29,752 bases of DNA, taken from IMG/VR virus record IMGVR_UViG_3300030102_005170, positions 1-29,752 of that record. One strand, given 5' to 3'. The position numbers were made by a program, and so were the translations under genes. Source of the DNA: a virus. A model generated the notes under the pieces. The model was given only the letters and a program-made list of their open reading frames with translations. It did not search any database and was not told the DNA's origin. Below, piece after piece: positions 22,222 to 28,855 of the stretch. Every line of letters starts with the position of its first letter. The first letter of the stretch is position 1.

Positions 22222-22353
22222 ATGGCTAAAGACGCATGTTATAAAAAAGTAAAGGCAAGGTATAAGGTGTTCCCGTCCGCATATGCTAGTGGTGCAATCG
22301 CTAAGTGTAGAAAAGTTGGAGCAGCAAACTGGGGTAATAAATCAAAAAAATAA
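22222..22353 (+). CDS. Small basic Cys-containing phage protein (43 aa)
   Basis: A 43-codon gene, start ATG 2 nt after the giant gene's stop. The product is strongly basic with two Cys: MAKDACYKKVKARYKVFPSA at the start, then YASGAIAKCRKVGAANWGNK and a Ser-Lys-Lys end. The [A]CY-KVK-RY--FPSAYASGA---CRKVGA-NWG pattern is, from memory, common as a tiny uncharacterised protein near late genes of marine phages, which supports it as real. The two Cys and many Lys suggest nucleic-acid or capsid contact, but this is not shown. Followed 6 nt later by another small basic gene. Confidence 0.75.
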   Translation: MAKDACYKKVKARYKVFPSAYASGAIAKCRKVGAANWGNKSKK

Positions 22354-22359
22354 GTTAAA

Positions 22360-22617
22360 ATGAAAGGTAAAGATAAAAAAAATTATAAGCCACATATGAT
22401 GTATTGTAAAGATGGCTCATCAAAAAAAGCTAAAACATATAAAGAACATTTAGCATTAAAGAAAAAAGGCTGTGGACATTCACCAATGAAAATGGACCCA
22501 AACAAAGGCGGTGAAACACAAGGTGGAGGAAAAGCAAAACAAGATCCAAATATAAAACCAGTACCAAATACAGCAGGTAGAAAACCTAAGGGAAAAAATG
22601 GCGGTAAGAAAAACTAA
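22360..22617 (+). CDS. Small Lys/Gly-rich protein with paired Cys and His (85 aa)
   Basis: Unknown function. Highly basic (many Lys) with two Cys and several His: PHMMYCKDGSSKKAKTYKEH near the N-terminus and KKKGCGHSPMKMD near residue 40. The C-terminal half is low-complexity Gly/Lys/Pro/Asn and looks disordered, ending KGKNGGKKN. The Cys and His spacing could bind a metal, but it matches no zinc-finger I can name. It starts 6 nt after the 43-aa gene and overlaps the following gene by 20 nt, so the three small genes are translated together. I expect a DNA- or capsid-associated role from charge, as a guess. Confidence 0.6.
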   Translation: MKGKDKKNYKPHMMYCKDGSSKKAKTYKEHLALKKKGCGHSPMKMDPNKGGETQGGGKAKQDPNIKPVPNTAGRKPKGKNGGKKN

Positions 22618-22876
22618 AAAAGGGGCTGCTCTTAAACGATGGTTTAAAGAAAAGTGGATTGATGTTCGCACTGGCAAACCATGTGGTAGACGTAAGGGTG
22701 AAAAACGTGGTGTTCCATATTGTAGACCAAGTAAAAGAGTATCGGGAGATACTGTAAAAACAGCTTCTGAGATGTCCGCATCAGAAAAAGCGGCAAAAAT
22801 AAGAGAAAAAAAGAATTTAGGTCAACCTGCAGGTAAGCCAAGAAGAGTAAAAAACGTTAAAAGACGCAAAAAATAG
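22598..22876 (+). CDS. Small basic protein of a DUF5872-like type (92 aa)
   Basis: Basic protein (Arg and Lys about a third of residues). The motif KKGAALKRWFKEKWIDVRTG, followed by KPCGRRKGEKRGVPYCRPSKRVS, with two Cys separated by a basic loop and a Trp pair, is what I recall from a small family annotated as DUF5872 in phages and bacteria; this naming is from memory. The C-terminal third is a charged helix (SEMSASEKAAKIREKKNLGQ) and an Arg/Lys-rich end. It uses CGT for several Arg codons, unlike the AGA-dominated structural genes, as does the next gene. It overlaps the preceding 85-aa gene by 20 nt and ends in TAG. Possible nucleic-acid binding. Confidence 0.65.
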   Translation: MAVRKTKKGAALKRWFKEKWIDVRTGKPCGRRKGEKRGVPYCRPSKRVSGDTVKTASEMSASEKAAKIREKKNLGQPAGKPRRVKNVKRRKK

Positions 22877-22907: not shown

Positions 22908-24098
22908 ATGAAACAAATTTTAACTATCTTAGCAATATTAATATCATTTAATATTACTGCGCAAGAAGAAAAGAAAAAAAGTAAATTTTTTAAATCTATT
23001 TATGATGAATTATTTAAATATGGTACATTATATATGGCGGGTGATATTAAAAATCCAAGAGAAAACCCTAAAGATTATTTTGTAAGAACAAACCCAGATG
23101 GTAATTTATACACACCACCTGTTGTTGTTGATGGTACAGACTATTATGACTTTGATTATCGTTATGGTTTTGGTATTCGTAAGATAGCAAGGTTTGATTA
23201 TGAAAGAAAAGCTAAGGATTACTATAATGGTACTGAATCTAACGTAGCTATGACAGCTCCTAATTCATCTATTAAAGGTTTAGAGTATGTATTTCATACG
23301 GAAAAAGAAAGGTCCAGAGATGAGATATTTAAAAATCACCGTTATTTTGTAAAACATAGTGGTAAATACCACATGGTTAAGTTAGAAAGTAGAGCACAAG
23401 GTAAAGTTGATTTTAAATACAAGTCAGCTGAAGTTAGAGCTAAATTACCTATTGGTAAAAAGTTTAGCTTATCAGCCGGCGCAATGTATCGTACACATGA
23501 AAGAGCTTACGGATATAATCCAATTGAAATTTGGTTGAACGAAACTAATGAACAAGGTTATCCTATAAATTACTGGTATCAATTAGGTTATAACTATGGT
23601 TATACCGATCAATGGGTAACTATTAATATTGATGGTGAAGATGTATACGATTATTATTGGTATGATCCAGAAGGAAATACAGTGGCCTATACAGATTTAC
23701 AGTTCCGTGATACTATATTTGAATCATTAATTAATCGTTACAATAACGAACAATGGGATTTACTAGATCCATTTGGTGTTGTATCACCTGTTGTCGGTTT
23801 TGATTTTTATCATTTCAAGTCAAATTTCTGGCTTCATGCTTACGGTTCTTATTTATTACCATATCACAAATATGTTGAAGGTGATGAGGACTTTAGTTAT
23901 TTAAATAGAAACAACTGGGGATTAGGCGGATTAAAACCAGATTCAGAACTTGAACAATGGGAAGATTTCCAAGCAGGTATAAACTTTGGATGGAAACTAA
24001 ACAGATCAATAGGTGTATTCTTTGAAGGTGAATATACTAAGTTTTGGGATAGTAGAATATATAACGGATCTGTAGGATTCAACATAACACTTAGATAA
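22908..24098 (+). CDS. Exported beta-barrel-like outer membrane protein (396 aa)
   Basis: Residues 1-19 are a clear signal peptide: MKQ, a hydrophobic core ILTILAILISF, then NITAQ with likely cleavage near AQ|EE. This is the short style typical of Flavobacteriia secreted proteins. After a basic stretch (KKKSKFFKS) the mature part is rich in aromatic residues (Tyr, Trp, Phe) and alternating hydrophobic/polar strands. It ends in amphipathic strands GINFGWKLNRSIGVFFEGEY and SVGFNITLR, as in outer membrane beta-barrels. No helical membrane segment. Arg is often CGT (around YRYGFGIR and FRDT), unlike most genes here, a weak hint of host origin. No homolog is recognised. A possible role is altering the host surface, for example blocking superinfection. 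Alternative: a secreted structural or carbohydrate-binding protein. Confidence 0.6.
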   Translation: MKQILTILAILISFNITAQEEKKKSKFFKSIYDELFKYGTLYMAGDIKNPRENPKDYFVRTNPDGNLYTPPVVVDGTDYYDFDYRYGFGIRKIARFDYERKAKDYYNGTESNVAMTAPNSSIKGLEYVFHTEKERSRDEIFKNHRYFVKHSGKYHMVKLESRAQGKVDFKYKSAEVRAKLPIGKKFSLSAGAMYRTHERAYGYNPIEIWLNETNEQGYPINYWYQLGYNYGYTDQWVTINIDGEDVYDYYWYDPEGNTVAYTDLQFRDTIFESLINRYNNEQWDLLDPFGVVSPVVGFDFYHFKSNFWLHAYGSYLLPYHKYVEGDEDFSYLNRNNWGLGGLKPDSELEQWEDFQAGINFGWKLNRSIGVFFEGEYTKFWDSRIYNGSVGFNITLR

Positions 24099-24099
24099 A

Positions 24100-24504
24100 A
24101 TGGCATATATACAAAAACACAATTACAAAGGAGTATTTAAAATGACTCAGGATAAAATGACTGAGGCAGAAGTACGTGCAAAATACGATAGAACTGCACC
24201 TAAACCAATACCTGTTGATGATGCATCTCCAAATGCAAGACCAGCTGTTTTACCTGGTATAAATAGAGCTGATAGAGCAAAAACATTAACAAAGCAGTAC
24301 GGTGATGTTATGGATAAAGAAGGTAAACCTATTTTAAATCCTTTAAAATTACTTACATCAAATAGATTTAATTACCCAAGATGGGAAGGAAGAATGATGG
24401 ATGCTGCTGTTGAGGGAGTTAAGAATGCTGTAATACCCGGTAGATTTTTAAATAAAATGAGAAGAGCTTATAAATATAATAAGATAACAAAAAATAAAAA
24501 TTAA
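24100..24504 (+). CDS. Unknown basic protein (134 aa; alternative start at 24142)
   Basis: No family recognised. ATG 24100 lies 1 nt after the upstream stop, the usual coupling here. A second in-frame ATG at 24142 is preceded by AAAGGAG (24127-24133, 8-nt spacing), the only strong Shine-Dalgarno-like motif I found in the window, and would give 120 aa. The sequence then runs TEAEVRAKYDRTAPKPIPVD, a Pro/Arg-rich linker, and a basic C-terminal half with FNYPRWEGRMMDAAVEGVKN and helices ending in KMRRAYKYNKITKNKN. No signal peptide or clear membrane segment. It sits between the beta-barrel-like gene and a membrane protein. Confidence 0.55.
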   Translation: MAYIQKHNYKGVFKMTQDKMTEAEVRAKYDRTAPKPIPVDDASPNARPAVLPGINRADRAKTLTKQYGDVMDKEGKPILNPLKLLTSNRFNYPRWEGRMMDAAVEGVKNAVIPGRFLNKMRRAYKYNKITKNKN

Positions 24505-24505
24505 A

Positions 24506-24793
24506 ATGGCAAAGCAGATTGGGGAAGATACTAAAGTAACATTAGATTTAAAAACAATAGGTTTAATAATTGGTGGGGCCGTTTCAATAGCAACGTTATA
24601 TTTTGCATTACAAGCTGATATAGCTCTTGCTAAAGAATTACCAGCACCTGTTATTGATAGAGTTGAATATGATTTGAAAGATGAATTAATTCGTCAAACA
24701 ATTATGGACACTCAAGACGATGTAGAAGAAATAAAAGAAACTATTGATAAAATAGATCAAAGATTATACGACATACAAAGTAAACAAAGATAG
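24506..24793 (+). CDS. Single-pass membrane protein with coiled coil (95 aa; inner spanin candidate)
   Basis: A short basic/acidic N-terminus (MAKQIGEDTK) is followed by one membrane segment at about residues 17-37 (LKTIGLIIGGAVSIATLYFA). A long acidic/charged helix follows from about 45 to the end, probably a coiled coil in the periplasm (DTQDDVEEIKETIDKIDQRL). N-terminal membrane anchor plus C-terminal coiled coil is the layout of a phage inner-membrane spanin (i-spanin), which with an outer-membrane lipoprotein partner fuses the membranes in lysis. The lipoprotein gene at 25697 could be that partner. Layout is seen; the spanin role is inference. It starts 1 nt after the previous stop and ends 1 nt before the thioredoxin-like gene. 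Confidence 0.5.
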   Translation: MAKQIGEDTKVTLDLKTIGLIIGGAVSIATLYFALQADIALAKELPAPVIDRVEYDLKDELIRQTIMDTQDDVEEIKETIDKIDQRLYDIQSKQR

Positions 24794-24794
24794 T

Positions 24795-25193
24795 ATGAAA
24801 TACTTAAATATAATTTTACTTTTAATTACATTTAATTCATTTGGACAAGAATGGATAGTTGATAGTAATTTTGATAGTAAGATAAATGAAAAACAAGCGT
24901 TTGGTGATAATCAAAACCTACCAGTAATAGTTGAATTTTATGCATCATTTAACGACGCTAATAAATTTGAAGATTGGGATAAATTAGAAAACGTTATATA
25001 TTATAGAGCAGATATAGCTAATTGCCCAGCAGCAAAGAAAAAATATAAAGTGCGAATGGCACCAACATTAATTATCTTTAAAGAAGGTATAAAAGAAATA
25101 GTATTCAAAGCAGGGTTAGATTTAATGTTACCAGCAGATTTAAAAGAAATACAAGAATCCATTAACGAAGTCAACGCGGCTTCACAATTTTAA
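24795..25193 (+). CDS. Exported thioredoxin-fold protein lacking CxxC (132 aa)
   Basis: Residues 1-18 are a signal peptide (MKYLNIILLLITF, then NSFGQ/E, a flavobacterial-style cleavage site). Residues ~42-110 follow the thioredoxin pattern: strand VIVEFYASF, helix, strand VIYYRADI, then the cis-Pro loop KVRMAPTLIIFKEG (Pro about residue 90) and a C-terminal helix. The usual WCxxC is replaced by ASFNDANK (residues 50-57), so no redox dithiol is possible; one Cys remains near residue 77. It therefore probably cannot act as an oxidoreductase and may bind or chaperone a periplasmic partner. T7 uses a host cytosolic thioredoxin as a polymerase factor, but this one is exported, so that role is unlikely. 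The fold call is by pattern only. Confidence 0.65.
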   Translation: MKYLNIILLLITFNSFGQEWIVDSNFDSKINEKQAFGDNQNLPVIVEFYASFNDANKFEDWDKLENVIYYRADIANCPAAKKKYKVRMAPTLIIFKEGIKEIVFKAGLDLMLPADLKEIQESINEVNAASQF

Positions 25194-25197
25194 AAAT

Positions 25198-25683
25198 ATG
25201 AGCGAAGGAAAATTCATGACTAGACTATATAACAAGCCTATTCAAAACTTAAATAAAACAGAAAGAAAGGCATATAGTTCAGGGCAAAATAAAGGAATAA
25301 TAGCTGGTATATCTATGATACCTATTGGTAGAGGTATAAGTGCAGGAGCTAGCATTATATCAAAAGCACCTGCGTTAGCAAAAGCTGTAAGAGCTTTTAC
25401 AAATGCACCTAGACAATATCTTAATTTAGCGTCAAAAGGTGTTGCTGTTGGTGATAAAGCTAAAAAAATAAGTACAGTTAGAGATTTAGCATCTCAAACA
25501 CGAGGTAAAATACCAAGATCGGGTGGCTTTAGAGATCCATCGGGTAAAGTTGTTGGGGGAACAGTTCGTGAAACTAGCAATGTTGTAAATACAAGACCTC
25601 TTATTGTAAATAATAAAGTAGTAACTGAGTTACCAAAATTAAGTGAAGTTAAAAATTTAGATAAATTTTTAGGTAAATTTTAA
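25198..25683 (+). CDS. Unknown protein with Gly/Ala/Ile-rich segment (161 aa)
   Basis: No family recognised. N-terminus MSEGKFMTRLYNKPIQNLNK is basic. It is followed by a Gly/Ala/Ser/Ile-rich stretch (about residues 32-62, GIIAGISMIPIGRGISAGAS, then IISKAPALAKAVRA), possibly membrane-active or amphipathic. After that comes a basic middle and a beta-like C-terminal part (RSGGFRDPSGKVVGG, VNTRPLIVNNKVVTELPKLS). No signal peptide. Begins 4 nt after the thioredoxin-like gene and ends 13 nt before the lipoprotein start, so it belongs to the same cassette. Function unknown. Confidence 0.55.
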   Translation: MSEGKFMTRLYNKPIQNLNKTERKAYSSGQNKGIIAGISMIPIGRGISAGASIISKAPALAKAVRAFTNAPRQYLNLASKGVAVGDKAKKISTVRDLASQTRGKIPRSGGFRDPSGKVVGGTVRETSNVVNTRPLIVNNKVVTELPKLSEVKNLDKFLGKF

Positions 25684-25696
25684 AATATAACTATGA

Positions 25697-26035
25697 GTGA
25701 GAAAAATACTTGTCCTTTTTGTGGCGGTTACTGTGGGCTGTGCTAGTTCACAAGACATAGGAAAAGATAAATATTATCATTTTGCAGCAGGTGCTACAAC
25801 GGCAGTAGTTGCAAATGAAATGGAATTACCAAGAGTAGCATCCTCTTTTGCAGCAGGATTTGCTAAAGAAACATATGACTATATACGAAATGGTCAGTTT
25901 GATGCTAAAGACTTGGTAGCCACTACGTTAGGTGGCATAGTAGTAAACTATATAATTAAATTAATAAAAAACAAAAAAAATGTGGAAATTAACAAAGAAA
26001 TACCTGAAGGACATATGGGTCCTTTTATGGAGTAA
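25697..26035 (+). CDS. Phage lipoprotein, YfiM/DUF2279-like (112 aa; GTG start)
   Basis: The start is GTG because an in-frame TGA lies directly upstream (25694-25696) and the next in-frame ATG is far inside. The N-terminus MRKILVLFVAVTVGC fits a lipoprotein signal with Cys 15 as the lipidated residue, followed by ASSQ. The mature part has DKYYHFAAGATTAVVA, then KETYDYIRNG and a Gly-rich hydrophobic segment TLGGIVVNYIIKLI. The DK--HF-AGA ... KE--D pattern resembles the YfiM/DUF2279 lipoprotein family from memory. It could pair with the membrane/coiled-coil protein at 24506 as an outer spanin, though it looks larger and more globular than a typical o-spanin. Its first codons contain a 4-bp tandem duplication (TGAG TGAG, 25694-25701). 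It overlaps the next gene by 56 nt. Confidence 0.6.
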   Translation: MRKILVLFVAVTVGCASSQDIGKDKYYHFAAGATTAVVANEMELPRVASSFAAGFAKETYDYIRNGQFDAKDLVATTLGGIVVNYIIKLIKNKKNVEINKEIPEGHMGPFME

Positions 26036-26282
26036 AACAGAAGTTGACGAAAAAGCAATAGCTACTTTAAAAGAAGTACAAAAAAGATATAAGTTAACTG
26101 CCCAAGAAATTGAAGATGTAGCTTCAGCAATGAAAGAAGTTGCAAATCAAATTGATGATATACCTAATGCTTTAAAAGGAAAAATCCGTAAAGGCAGAAA
26201 AGTTAAAAGTTTAGGTAAAATGACTATGGGTAAAAAGAAGGAAGATCCTTATTATAAAAATAGTAAAAAACTAAATAAATAA
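25980..26282 (+). CDS. Small basic helical protein (100 aa)
   Basis: Unknown. ATG 25980 overlaps the end of the lipoprotein gene by 56 nt. The N-terminal segment MWKLTKKYLKDIWVLLWSKT is amphipathic/hydrophobic with three Trp and could lie at a membrane surface. Residues ~25-70 form an acidic amphipathic helix pair (TLKEVQKRYKLTAQEIEDVA, then SAMKEVANQIDDIPNALKGK). The C-terminus is very basic (KIRKGRKVKSLGKM, then GKKKEDPYYKNSKKLNK), possibly nucleic-acid or lipid binding. Its stop overlaps the next start by 1 nt (TAATG), giving tight coupling to the holin candidate. Confidence 0.5.
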   Translation: MWKLTKKYLKDIWVLLWSKTEVDEKAIATLKEVQKRYKLTAQEIEDVASAMKEVANQIDDIPNALKGKIRKGRKVKSLGKMTMGKKKEDPYYKNSKKLNK

Positions 26283-26653
26283 TGAATATGTTTAAAGATA
26301 AAGAATTAAGGGGATATGTGGGCGCAGCTACAGTATTTTTACTTGTAATGGGTTTACTATTATTTTTGGCATTTTTTGAAATACCAGATACAAACAATGA
26401 TATATTTAAAGTTATTGTGGGTATGTTAGTTGGTAGCTTATCTGTTGTTATATATACTTTTATAGGTAAAAACCCTGAAGAAGTAGAAGCTTTAAAGGCT
26501 AGAAATGAAGCATTAGAAGATAAAGTAAATCAAATGGTTATTGAAAAAGATAAATTAGAAGCATTATTAAGAGATCTTCAAAACGAGATTATAGAAAATT
26601 TATCTATAGCTGGTGGTAAGTTTGAATTTAAAAATAATGGAAAAACTAAGTAA
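26282..26653 (+). CDS. Two-pass membrane protein, holin candidate (123 aa)
   Basis: Two hydrophobic segments: about residues 13-33 (GAATVFLLVMGLLLFLAFF) and 43-62 (VIVGMLVGSLSVVIYTFIG), joined by a short acidic loop. A charged coiled-coil tail follows (ALKARNEALEDKVNQMVIEK). Small two-pass protein directly before an endolysin is the classic holin place; holins open the inner membrane at a set time so endolysin reaches the wall. The coiled coil is unusual for a holin and may mark oligomerisation. The stop overlaps the endolysin start (26637) by 17 nt. Alternative: a spanin or membrane anchor. The role is inferred from layout and neighbour. Confidence 0.55.
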   Translation: MNMFKDKELRGYVGAATVFLLVMGLLLFLAFFEIPDTNNDIFKVIVGMLVGSLSVVIYTFIGKNPEEVEALKARNEALEDKVNQMVIEKDKLEALLRDLQNEIIENLSIAGGKFEFKNNGKTK

Positions 26654-27098
26654 AAACGTAAGTTATAAGGAAGGTGTGTATAGCATTACGGCTGATAGAT
26701 TAGGTTTAGAAAATAAACCTAATGAAGAACAATTAGCTAATATGAAAACAATAGCTGAAAAAGTATTTCAACCATTAAGACAATGGGTTGGAGGACCAGT
26801 AAAAATTAATTCATTTTTTAGATCACCGGAATTAAATAAAGCAATTGGTGGGTCATCTAAATCACAGCATTGCCATGGGCAAGCAATTGATATTGATGAT
26901 ACTTTTGGCAAAAGAACTAATGCCGAAATGTTTACTTATATAAAAGAAATGTTAGACTTTGATCAAATGATTTGGGAATTTGGAGATGATAATAATCCTA
27001 ATTGGGTACATGTAAGTTATGTATCACCTGAAGAAAACAGAAATAGATGTTTAAAAGCATATAAGGAAAACGGTAAAACCAAATATATGGTAATATAA
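26637..27098 (+). CDS. Endolysin, M15-type peptidase (153 aa)
   Basis: Predicted zinc peptidase that cleaves peptide bonds in peptidoglycan at lysis. Residues 76-87 hold the M15 motif SQHCHGQAIDID (His 78 and Asp 85 as zinc ligands), and WVHVS near residue 125 supplies the third zinc ligand, His. An acidic residue before it, in IWEFGDD, is the likely catalytic base. Upstream, INSFFRSPELNKAIGG matches the usual substrate-side segment of the M15_3 family. I chose ATG 26637 over the upstream GTG at 26613, because the sequence between them lies inside the holin frame and adds only eight atypical residues. It has no signal peptide, so it needs the holin to reach the wall. Ends 5 nt before a terminator. 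Confidence 0.8.
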   Translation: MEKLSKNVSYKEGVYSITADRLGLENKPNEEQLANMKTIAEKVFQPLRQWVGGPVKINSFFRSPELNKAIGGSSKSQHCHGQAIDIDDTFGKRTNAEMFTYIKEMLDFDQMIWEFGDDNNPNWVHVSYVSPEENRNRCLKAYKENGKTKYMVI

Positions 27099-27102
27099 AA
27101 AT

Positions 27103-27134
27103 AAAGGGAAGCAATTAAGCCTCCCTTTTTTTAT
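27103..27134 (+). terminator. Bidirectional terminator between late genes and nrd genes
   Basis: AAAGGGAAGC (27103-27112) pairs with GCCTCCCTTT (27119-27128) around AATTAA, with one A-C mismatch. A T run follows on the + strand, and an A-rich flank (AATATAAAAAT) gives a T-rich run when read leftward. It sits in the 35-base gap between convergent genes ending at 27098 (+) and 27134 (-), so it can end both transcripts. Confidence 0.85.
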
Positions 27135-28855
27135 TATCCATCACAAGCTAAACAATTCTCATCCATAGCTTGTTGAGCAATATCTCCTCTTAGTACAGAT
27201 TCCGTACGAACATAATACAAAGTTTTAATACCTTTTTTCCACGCCTCTAAATGAACTTTATTAATCCATTTAGGTGTAGCTACAGAAGGAAATGCTAAAT
27301 TTAAACTAACAGATTGGTCAATGTATTGTTGACGTATACCTGCTTGATTAACTAATTCTAGCTGATTAATTTCCTTGAAAGTTTTGAATATTTCTTTGAC
27401 GGGTATATCGTGACTTCCGTAGGTAATTTTGTCTAATGCTTTGATACCTTGGATTGACCCTCCGTCTTGCAGAATTTGATTCCATATTTTTTCGTTGTCT
27501 AATTTGTGTTTTCTTAATATCTTTTTTAATGTAGGATTTTTTCTTATAAAGGTCCCCTTTGCTGATTGCTCAGTAAATATATTAGCGGCCCAAGGCTCAA
27601 TGCCAGGGCTAACGTTACCACTGAGCTTACTATTAGACACAGTAGGAGCAATAGCCCGCAAATGGGTGTTACGCATACCAGTACCGCGACACCATAACGG
27701 TTCACCATATGTTTCAGCCAAACCACGACTTGCTCTTTCACTTTCAATTTTAATTTGTGAAAATATTTTACGAGTTTCAAACTGTGCGAGTAAACCTTCA
27801 AAAGGAATACCTTTGTTTTGTAAATAGGTATGCCAACCAAGAACACCAAGTCCAAGAGCTCTACCTTTTTCAGCCGACCTAACTGCGTTTTCAAATCCAT
27901 ACCTGTATTTTGCTCTTTGTATAAATTCTTCAAGTACTCCATCCAAGAACCAAATCGCATCATGAATGATGTTTGTGTTTTTCCATTCTTCATATTTTGC
28001 TAAATTTAATGATGATAAACAACATACAAAACTATGTGACTCATCTGTATGTAATGTTATTTCACTACATATATTAGTCATATGTACTTTTAAAGCGTTG
28101 TCTTTGTAAGCCGCTGGATTTTGTTTGTTAGTGTTTCCTTTAAAAAGTATATAAGGTTCTCCAGTCGCTTTACGTTTTTGCAATAACTTACTCCATTTTT
28201 TTCTTGCAACTTTATCGCCTGCTTCAAGTCTTCGCATGAATTTATCGCCGACGACAGCGCATTGATGTAAGTTAAGCGATTGTCTGTTGATGTCTCCTTT
28301 AGGTTCTCTAATTTCGAGCCACTCTTCAAAATCATCGTGGTCAATGTTAATATTAACGCTAGCTGCTCCTCTTCTAACGGATCCTTGATTTGTTGCAAGA
28401 ATAGTTGAATCGTATATTTTACAGAAAGGCACCACTCCGTCGCTTGTTCCATTTCCAGTTATTTTTGCGCCGGCGGGTCTAATCATATTAATTCCGATAC
28501 CTACTCCACCGCCGTGCTTAGCGAGTAACATCATCTCTAAATTCTTTTTACCAATATCTTGTATGCTATCAGCAACATCAATTCCAAAACAACTAATAGG
28601 TAAACCTCTATCTATACCTGTGTTAGAAAGCACTGGGGAAGCTAAACATAACCAGCCTTTCCATATATATTCAAAAAAAGTTTCAGCTAATTCTGGACGA
28701 TATAAACGCTTAGCAACAGTTGTTGCAACACGCTCATAAGCATCTTTAGGTGACTCACCATTATATAAATAGCCTCCTGTTATTGTTTTTTTATAAACAT
28801 CTGTATCACCCCAAGCAGGATAATCAACTCCTTTTTTCCAATCTTTATTCCACAT
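27134..28855 (-). CDS. nrdA: Class I ribonucleotide reductase, alpha subunit (573 aa, no ATP cone)
   Basis: The alpha subunit reduces ribonucleoside diphosphates to deoxy forms for phage DNA synthesis. Visible catalytic features: Cys 89 in PISCFGI (E. coli Cys 225), Asn 261/Cys 263/Glu 265 in TNICSEITL (thiyl-radical Cys 439 and Glu 441), and Cys 278 in FVCCLSSLNL (Cys 462). Also seen are the radical-transfer pair Tyr 547-Tyr 548 in KTLYYVR and a C-terminal redox tail ENCLACDG (Cys 568 and 571). E. coli NrdA is 761 aa; here the N-terminal ATP cone that gives overall dATP inhibition is missing, as in several phage enzymes, so dNTP pools may be unrestrained. It starts 1 nt after the small membrane gene and is transcribed leftward with nrdB. 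Orientation and spacing imply one operon. Confidence 0.93.
   Translation of the reverse strand: MWNKDWKKGVDYPAWGDTDVYKKTITGGYLYNGESPKDAYERVATTVAKRLYRPELAETFFEYIWKGWLCLASPVLSNTGIDRGLPISCFGIDVADSIQDIGKKNLEMMLLAKHGGGVGIGINMIRPAGAKITGNGTSDGVVPFCKIYDSTILATNQGSVRRGAASVNINIDHDDFEEWLEIREPKGDINRQSLNLHQCAVVGDKFMRRLEAGDKVARKKWSKLLQKRKATGEPYILFKGNTNKQNPAAYKDNALKVHMTNICSEITLHTDESHSFVCCLSSLNLAKYEEWKNTNIIHDAIWFLDGVLEEFIQRAKYRYGFENAVRSAEKGRALGLGVLGWHTYLQNKGIPFEGLLAQFETRKIFSQIKIESERASRGLAETYGEPLWCRGTGMRNTHLRAIAPTVSNSKLSGNVSPGIEPWAANIFTEQSAKGTFIRKNPTLKKILRKHKLDNEKIWNQILQDGGSIQGIKALDKITYGSHDIPVKEIFKTFKEINQLELVNQAGIRQQYIDQSVSLNLAFPSVATPKWINKVHLEAWKKGIKTLYYVRTESVLRGDIAQQAMDENCLACDG

Follow-up and report, generated by a model that had tools for sequence, protein, structure and literature searches.

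Two-component spanins, such as Rz/Rz1 of phage lambda, combine an inner-membrane protein (i-spanin), which has an N-terminal transmembrane (TM) segment and a periplasmic tail, with an exported outer-membrane lipoprotein (o-spanin) encoded in the vicinity of holin and endolysin, and the pair would connect the two membranes (PMC6139136). A survey of spanins left about 13% of phages without a recognisable one, Croceibacter and Bacteroides phages among them, and its authors asked about another outer-membrane route and considered that an outer-membrane protein could act as o-spanin (PMC6139136). In flavophages, unimolecular spanins were reported from just a few isolates (PMC8776804). Here, three linked genes, g1, g3 and g4, are described from the IMG/VR virus record IMGVR_UViG_3300030102_005170, whose full 29,752 bases are called the window below. 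They encode a predicted outer-membrane β-barrel, a single-pass inner-membrane protein and an exported thioredoxin fold, respectively, and this trio is carried by many uncultured marine viruses of flavobacteria-type hosts, often beside the genes that burst the cell. The reading we favour, with a confidence that falls a little short of even, is that the trio is an envelope-spanning module that breaches the outer membrane to complete lysis and works like a spanin.

The i-spanin arrangement of an N-terminal TM segment and a periplasmic helical tail was found in g3. A conserved cytoplasmic stretch (VTLDLKTIG) precedes the single TM segment, which starts at residue 13-21 in 90% of the members. The tail that follows the TM segment has a median length of 59 residues, and E, K, D and R positions are conserved in it. 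Some members gave weak profile matches to holin and Rz-like spanin families. As in two-component spanins, an exported partner gene is present, holin and endolysin genes are in the vicinity and the products would connect the membranes. The trio differs in that the outer-membrane partner is predicted to be an integral 12-stranded barrel and in the addition of a third, periplasmic protein of thioredoxin fold; its core is devoid of an o-spanin lipoprotein, and a lipidated barrel was seen in a sister clade only. Paired with g3 is not the gene of a small outer-membrane lipoprotein but g4, an exported thioredoxin fold, and the other candidate partner, g6, is a lipoprotein in some members only and is often absent. 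Since the exported protein encoded next to g3 is no lipoprotein, and a barrel is what would serve at the outer membrane, the trio was not filed as a two-component spanin, though by analogy it may work like one. Unimolecular spanins of the T1 gp11 type share the proposed outer-membrane task, and no member of the trio has both a lipobox and a C-terminal TM segment. In several large phages a second g3-like gene (LTEESKVQLDIKALIG...) was located after the trio (L075:9682-10017-type; L184:9682-10017, L210:10090-10422).

A preliminary description of the window, based on its letters alone, had joined eight coupled genes, g1 to g8 (22908-26653), into one phage system directed at the outer membrane, the periplasm and the inner membrane. 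All eight open reading frames (ORFs) were recovered on the + strand with gaps of 1, 1, 1, 4 and 13 nt followed by overlaps of 56 and 1 nt, and the envelope targeting was supported by export and barrel predictions. As a single system the eight genes did not hold, because g2 was detected in just 6 loci and g5 in 9; g6-g8 were variable. Judged from the sequences, the conserved unit is the trio g1-g3-g4, and this is the part of the expected block that was linked in related phages. Export and barrel signals and a linked block in relatives, whose absence had been named beforehand as evidence against the description, were thus both present.

Loci were fetched from IMG/VR with g1 or the endolysin (n = 160), with g3 (n = 77) and with the sister barrel (n = 80). 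Different scans shared loci, and exact identity of the g3-g4 sequence was the only criterion for removing duplicates, which left 247 units; the counts therefore represent sequences and not independent events. The trio core recurred across about 290 loci. Among the 77 loci fetched with g3, g1 was present in 63 and g4 in 74, and the 80 fetched with the sister barrel held g3 in 72 and g4 in 68, some contigs being cut in both sets; 58 of 80 endolysin-fetched loci contained g1 by tblastn. The distance between g3 and g4 was at most 60 nt in 281 of 301 cases and that between g1 and g3 at most 500 nt in 227 of 256. Two gene orders were seen, g1-g3-g4 and g3-g4-g1, the linkage was kept in contigs of up to 181 kb, and exactly one g1 was present in each of the whole records examined (18/18).

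Purifying selection on g1 and g3 is strong, the ratio of nonsynonymous to synonymous substitution rates (dN/dS) against close relatives being 0.03-0.05 for g1, 0.03-0.10 for g3, 0.05-0.13 for g4, 0.06-0.09 for g8 and 0.08-0.19 for the endolysin. The trio also co-evolves and correlates within itself more than with the endolysin: pairwise distances (122 loci) correlated at 0.73 for g3-g4, 0.60 for g1-g3 and 0.39 for g1-g4, compared with 0.27-0.37 between trio and endolysin. A search of 50,697 annotated phage records revealed no match to g1 or g3 and a single, unrelated thioredoxin for g4, and the g1 and g3 profiles had no match in six whole records, including Panino, elemoF, phi38:1, P2559S and P2559Y, which rules out the trio in the known phages searched. 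The Croceibacter phage P2559S, listed as spanin-less, encodes downstream of its endolysin a protein, gp29, with an N-terminal TM segment and a helical tail (L333:27300-28065). An exported ORF missing from the annotation (27508-28065) overlaps gp29 and contains a helical region as well as beta-like stretches at its C-terminus; from this layout the two are a possible overlooked spanin-like pair.

The description of g1 as exported and barrel-like was borne out. By one home-made rule, an export signal was detected in 220/242 g1 relatives and 214/241 g4 relatives, against 157/2860 control ORFs. The AlphaFold2 model of g1 was a barrel of 12 long strands with a long structured loop domain at residues 198-288, and its mean predicted local distance difference test score rose from 71 with 33 sequences to 81.7 with 118. 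Both a signal peptide and a closed barrel fold were accordingly predicted, although strand alternation by itself was not significant (p 0.078). Comparison with PDB structures gave generic matches to outer-membrane barrels of many families. With OMPLA, NanC, KdgM, Tsx and EstA, g1 has in common a predicted closed barrel of about 12 strands (VIA-align Z 8.8-12.7, identity <13%), a match that does not indicate function; for OMPLA the fold Z was 8.8-10.7 with no OMPLA sequence match. The two models ranked different families first, EstA/Tsx/KdgM and then TamA/CymA/BamA, and since the matches are also generic no enzyme or transporter was inferred and assignment of function from the fold was dropped. 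No sequence match to g1 was found in Pfam, PHROGs, NCBIfam or PDB. From the models, g1 is an exported outer-membrane barrel of no narrower family. A sister clade with about 30-34% identity to g1 was encoded in 446 loci, and 56 of its 89 short-form members carried a lipobox.

Phage-encoded exported barrels are known from Lom of lambda, the lc porin of PA-2 and the uncultured-phage barrels in BFVD. No specific sequence relation of g1 to these was found. It differs from them in its linkage to g3 and g4 and in its occurrence in virulent-type uncultured phages, not as a prophage conversion gene. Among 84,980 prokaryote genomes, g1 occurred in just 11 contigs, surrounded by phage genes and assigned to implausible hosts, for example Woesearchaeota and Maricaulis. 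These contigs are apparently misbinned viral DNA, and a host-derived barrel as the origin of g1 was ruled out at this sensitivity.

The thioredoxin fold proposed for g4 was supported by Pfam (PF00085, E 4e-6) and by PDB sequence matches, and the cis-proline (PT) of the fold was kept. In common with thioredoxin are the fold and the cis-proline; g4 differs by its export, in most members through a signal of the signal-peptidase-I type, by a C-terminal Phe (263/298 members) and by the loss of the CxxC active site, absent from 296 of the 298 members and found in 2. With CxxC missing, a redox role was rejected, and by sequence g4 is not a redox enzyme.

The endolysins beside the trio belong to unrelated families swapped at the same spot, namely M15, Amidase_2, and a peptidoglycan-binding domain with Amidase_2. 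Within the 91 units whose flanks reached 4 kb or more upstream and 7 kb or more downstream, a recognised endolysin was near 62 and a holin-like gene near 49, both being raw counts with no background rate alongside. The 164-kb contig behind L198 carries a two-TM holin-like gene, g1, g3, g4 and an amidase endolysin in succession, and L219 a holin-like gene, g1, a lipoprotein, g3, g4 and an amidase-like protein. In L244 and L248, g3-g4 without g1 is followed by an amidase and a three-TM holin-like gene, and in L229, where g1 is also missing, a small lipoprotein gene lies between g4 and the endolysin. The trio is the sole + strand cluster among - strand genes in L238 and can therefore be an independent operon. 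In large phages, genes for additional exported proteins and lipoproteins adjoin the trio. One exported phage protein of 730 aa (L282:4313-6502, +) ends in a type IX secretion sorting domain (PF18962, TIGR04183), and relatives occur in L256 and other L088-type loci, in about 54-94 loci, between g4 and the endolysin region; by this domain it is a candidate cargo of a host type IX system.

In the window, the + strand carries in order the end of a terminase gene, the portal, virion genes, a muzzle-like protein, a 2188-aa protein and the lysis region (Table 1), with ribonucleotide reductase genes on the opposite strand, convergent with this late operon. Because the + strand carries everything from the terminase on, the g1-g8 cassette has no visible transcription boundary at its 5′ end. 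The unit of g1-g8 plus g9, which overlaps g8 by 17 nt, is ended by the hairpin. Sigma-70-type promoter matches were outnumbered by those in shuffles and were set aside. The 1581-aa virion protein at 8737-13482 matches the C-terminal domain of the crassvirus muzzle (PF25729, E 7e-7). Between the 2188-aa gene and g1 lie the genes of three small proteins that are strongly basic (+11, +18 and +26; 22222-22876), with phrog_727 and DUF5872 matches; they recur near the trio in many relatives at shifting positions. The portal shares 42-52% identity with its counterparts in a spring phage genome, in Maribacter phage Panino and in Flavobacterium elemo phages. In Bacteroidetes, signal peptides end before Gln (the Q-rule; PMC5837995). 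Those of g1 and g4 do so in most relatives, and a Bacteroidota host is therefore likely for the window phage on this signature.

Table 1. Features of the lysis region in the window.
Feature	Position	Strand	Description
g1	22908..24098	+	Predicted exported outer-membrane β-barrel, 396 aa, 12 predicted long strands, signal peptide ends TAQ
g2	24100..24504	+	Basic, 134 aa, accessory, no function assigned
g3	24506..24793	+	Single-pass inner-membrane protein, 59-residue periplasmic helical tail, i-spanin-like topology
g4	24795..25193	+	Exported thioredoxin fold without CxxC
g5	25198..25683	+	Basic, 161 aa, accessory, no function assigned
g6	25697..26035	+	YfiM/DUF2279-like exported protein, GTG start, lipobox-like signal
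g7	25980..26282	+	Small basic protein, conserved WxKxxxKDxWxxLWSK start, no TM segment, no function assigned
g8	26282..26653	+	Two-TM protein, class II holin-like hairpin, cytoplasmic helical tail
g9	26637..27098	+	M15 peptidase endolysin, start ATG 26637
Terminator-like hairpin	27103..27128	.	Bidirectional, intrinsic type, T runs on both sides; between late operon and ribonucleotide reductase operon

Of the accessory genes, g6 is similar to the YfiM/DUF2279 lipoprotein, yet its match (E 2.7e-5) of 24.3 bits is far under the curated cut-off of 117 bits. Its earlier designation as a lipoprotein stood for the window itself, in which, as in L071 and L017, a lipobox-like signal was found, but not for the many relatives that carry an ordinary signal peptidase I signal. 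The two-pass, holin-like nature of g8 was confirmed, with the class II layout of a short protein with two TM segments beside the endolysin; it had no holin family match. Weak similarity of g8 to 4TM effector models of PADLOC (E 1e-5) and to Pfam S_4TM was seen, and g8 was 77-96% identical between phages whose g1 barrels share only about 55-75%. As an M15 endolysin, g9 was clearly recognised by Peptidase_M15_3 (52.1 bits, cut-off 23.2) and a PHROG endolysin match (E 7e-30). No PADLOC model was matched by g1-g6, and g7, g8 and g9 gave weak matches alone; a known defence system was dropped, as PADLOC had no match for the trio.

The trio covers the outer membrane, the periplasm and the inner membrane, which are the compartments a lysis set must handle, and the exchange of endolysin types around a constant trio is as expected if the trio serves lysis separately from the endolysin. 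Strong constraint across g1, loops included, is a poor fit to an arms race at the cell surface, and a conversion gene is hard to reconcile with the absence of prophage copies. Taken together, these four observations favour a spanin-like disruption of the outer membrane. In such a mechanism, g3 would be anchored in the inner membrane and g4 would link the tail of g3 to the periplasmic side of g1, the barrel standing in for the o-spanin lipoprotein. After holin and endolysin have acted, the complex would pull both membranes together or disrupt the outer one. A wider proposal, held somewhat more tentatively, is that a system for outer-membrane disruption, made of three components, is widespread in marine Bacteroidota phages, with an integral barrel replacing the spanin lipoprotein and a redox-dead thioredoxin fold joining that barrel to an inner-membrane anchor. 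That lysis needs only three or four genes had been taken as a pointer away from lysis, an argument that loses its force if the trio could be the outer-membrane part.

Several observations weigh against a spanin-like role. The g3 tail of about 59 residues spans just about 9 nm as one helix, and of the single-pass coiled coil first described only the TM segment was well supported, the coiled-coil signal of the tail being weak (heptad periodicity in the window, p 0.095). In 12 of 164 units with good flanks g1 was missing, and once, in a 59-kb contig, the trio formed an operon by itself, at a distance from all lysis genes seen. The amidase endolysin was tens of kb from the trio in four large phages, and 13 of 18 large-phage records had no endolysin of the two families searched. 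Finally, the trio phages L195 (11720-12398) and L219 (9222-9894) also carry an overlapping spanin-like pair, in which a TM protein with a helical tail is combined with an exported protein with a C-terminal TM segment.

The wider functions suggested at the outset, surface remodelling, superinfection exclusion or lysis timing, are possible, but an outer-membrane lysis step fits better because of the dN/dS of g1, the nonhomologous endolysin neighbours and the absence from bacterial genomes. Superinfection exclusion or receptor masking is unlikely, though the likeliest of the alternatives: g1 would block or replace a receptor and g3 and g4 would block DNA entry, guarding the infected cell or the progeny it releases. 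Exclusion or receptor roles are known for phage-encoded outer-membrane proteins, both barrels and lipoproteins (the PA-2 lc porin, T5 Llp and Cor), and the trio can stand alone and lies far from the endolysin in large phages. Such very strong purifying selection on g1, long loops included, would however be unusual in a surface arms race, the trio genes are among the late genes, PADLOC had no match for them, and bacterial-genome copies were found only in apparently misbinned phage contigs, so lysogens do not use g1. A general late remodelling of the envelope unrelated to lysis, for example vesiculation or nutrient uptake via the barrel, is improbable. It would accommodate the additional exported proteins and lipoproteins beside the trio in large phages and the exported protein with a type IX sorting domain in L088-type phages, but g1 matched generic barrels alone and no specific transport porin family, and the repeated endolysin neighbourhood would be left unexplained.

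Control of lysis, with g3 as a one-TM holin or antiholin, g4 as a periplasmic regulator and g1 as an outer-membrane sensor in an outline like T4 lysis inhibition, appears a shade less probable still. The trio adjoins holin-like and endolysin genes, and the single TM segment, periplasmic tail and weak holin-family matches of g3 agree with it. Many of the same loci, however, have separate two-TM and three-TM holin-like genes; g3 is therefore not needed as holin, and as the sole holin it was ruled out. Least probable is a canonical two-component spanin in the window, formed by g3 as i-spanin and the g6 lipoprotein as o-spanin, with another task for the barrel. The topology of g3 and the lipobox-like signal of g6 in the window and two relatives would suit it, but g6 was present in just 45 of the 332 loci with families counted, many of its relatives have signal peptidase I signals, and g6 is YfiM-like and not a short proline-rich o-spanin.

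The spanin-like reading of g1-g3-g4 makes the trio a concrete and widespread candidate for the alternative outer-membrane route in phages without a recognisable spanin, and if true it would represent a mode of outer-membrane rupture not described before in phages. Two of the trio families are absent from Pfam, PHROGs and NCBIfam, and the search of annotated phage records revealed no trio. Should a spanin role not hold, the trio is still a conserved three-gene, phage-only envelope module present in hundreds of marine viral contigs.

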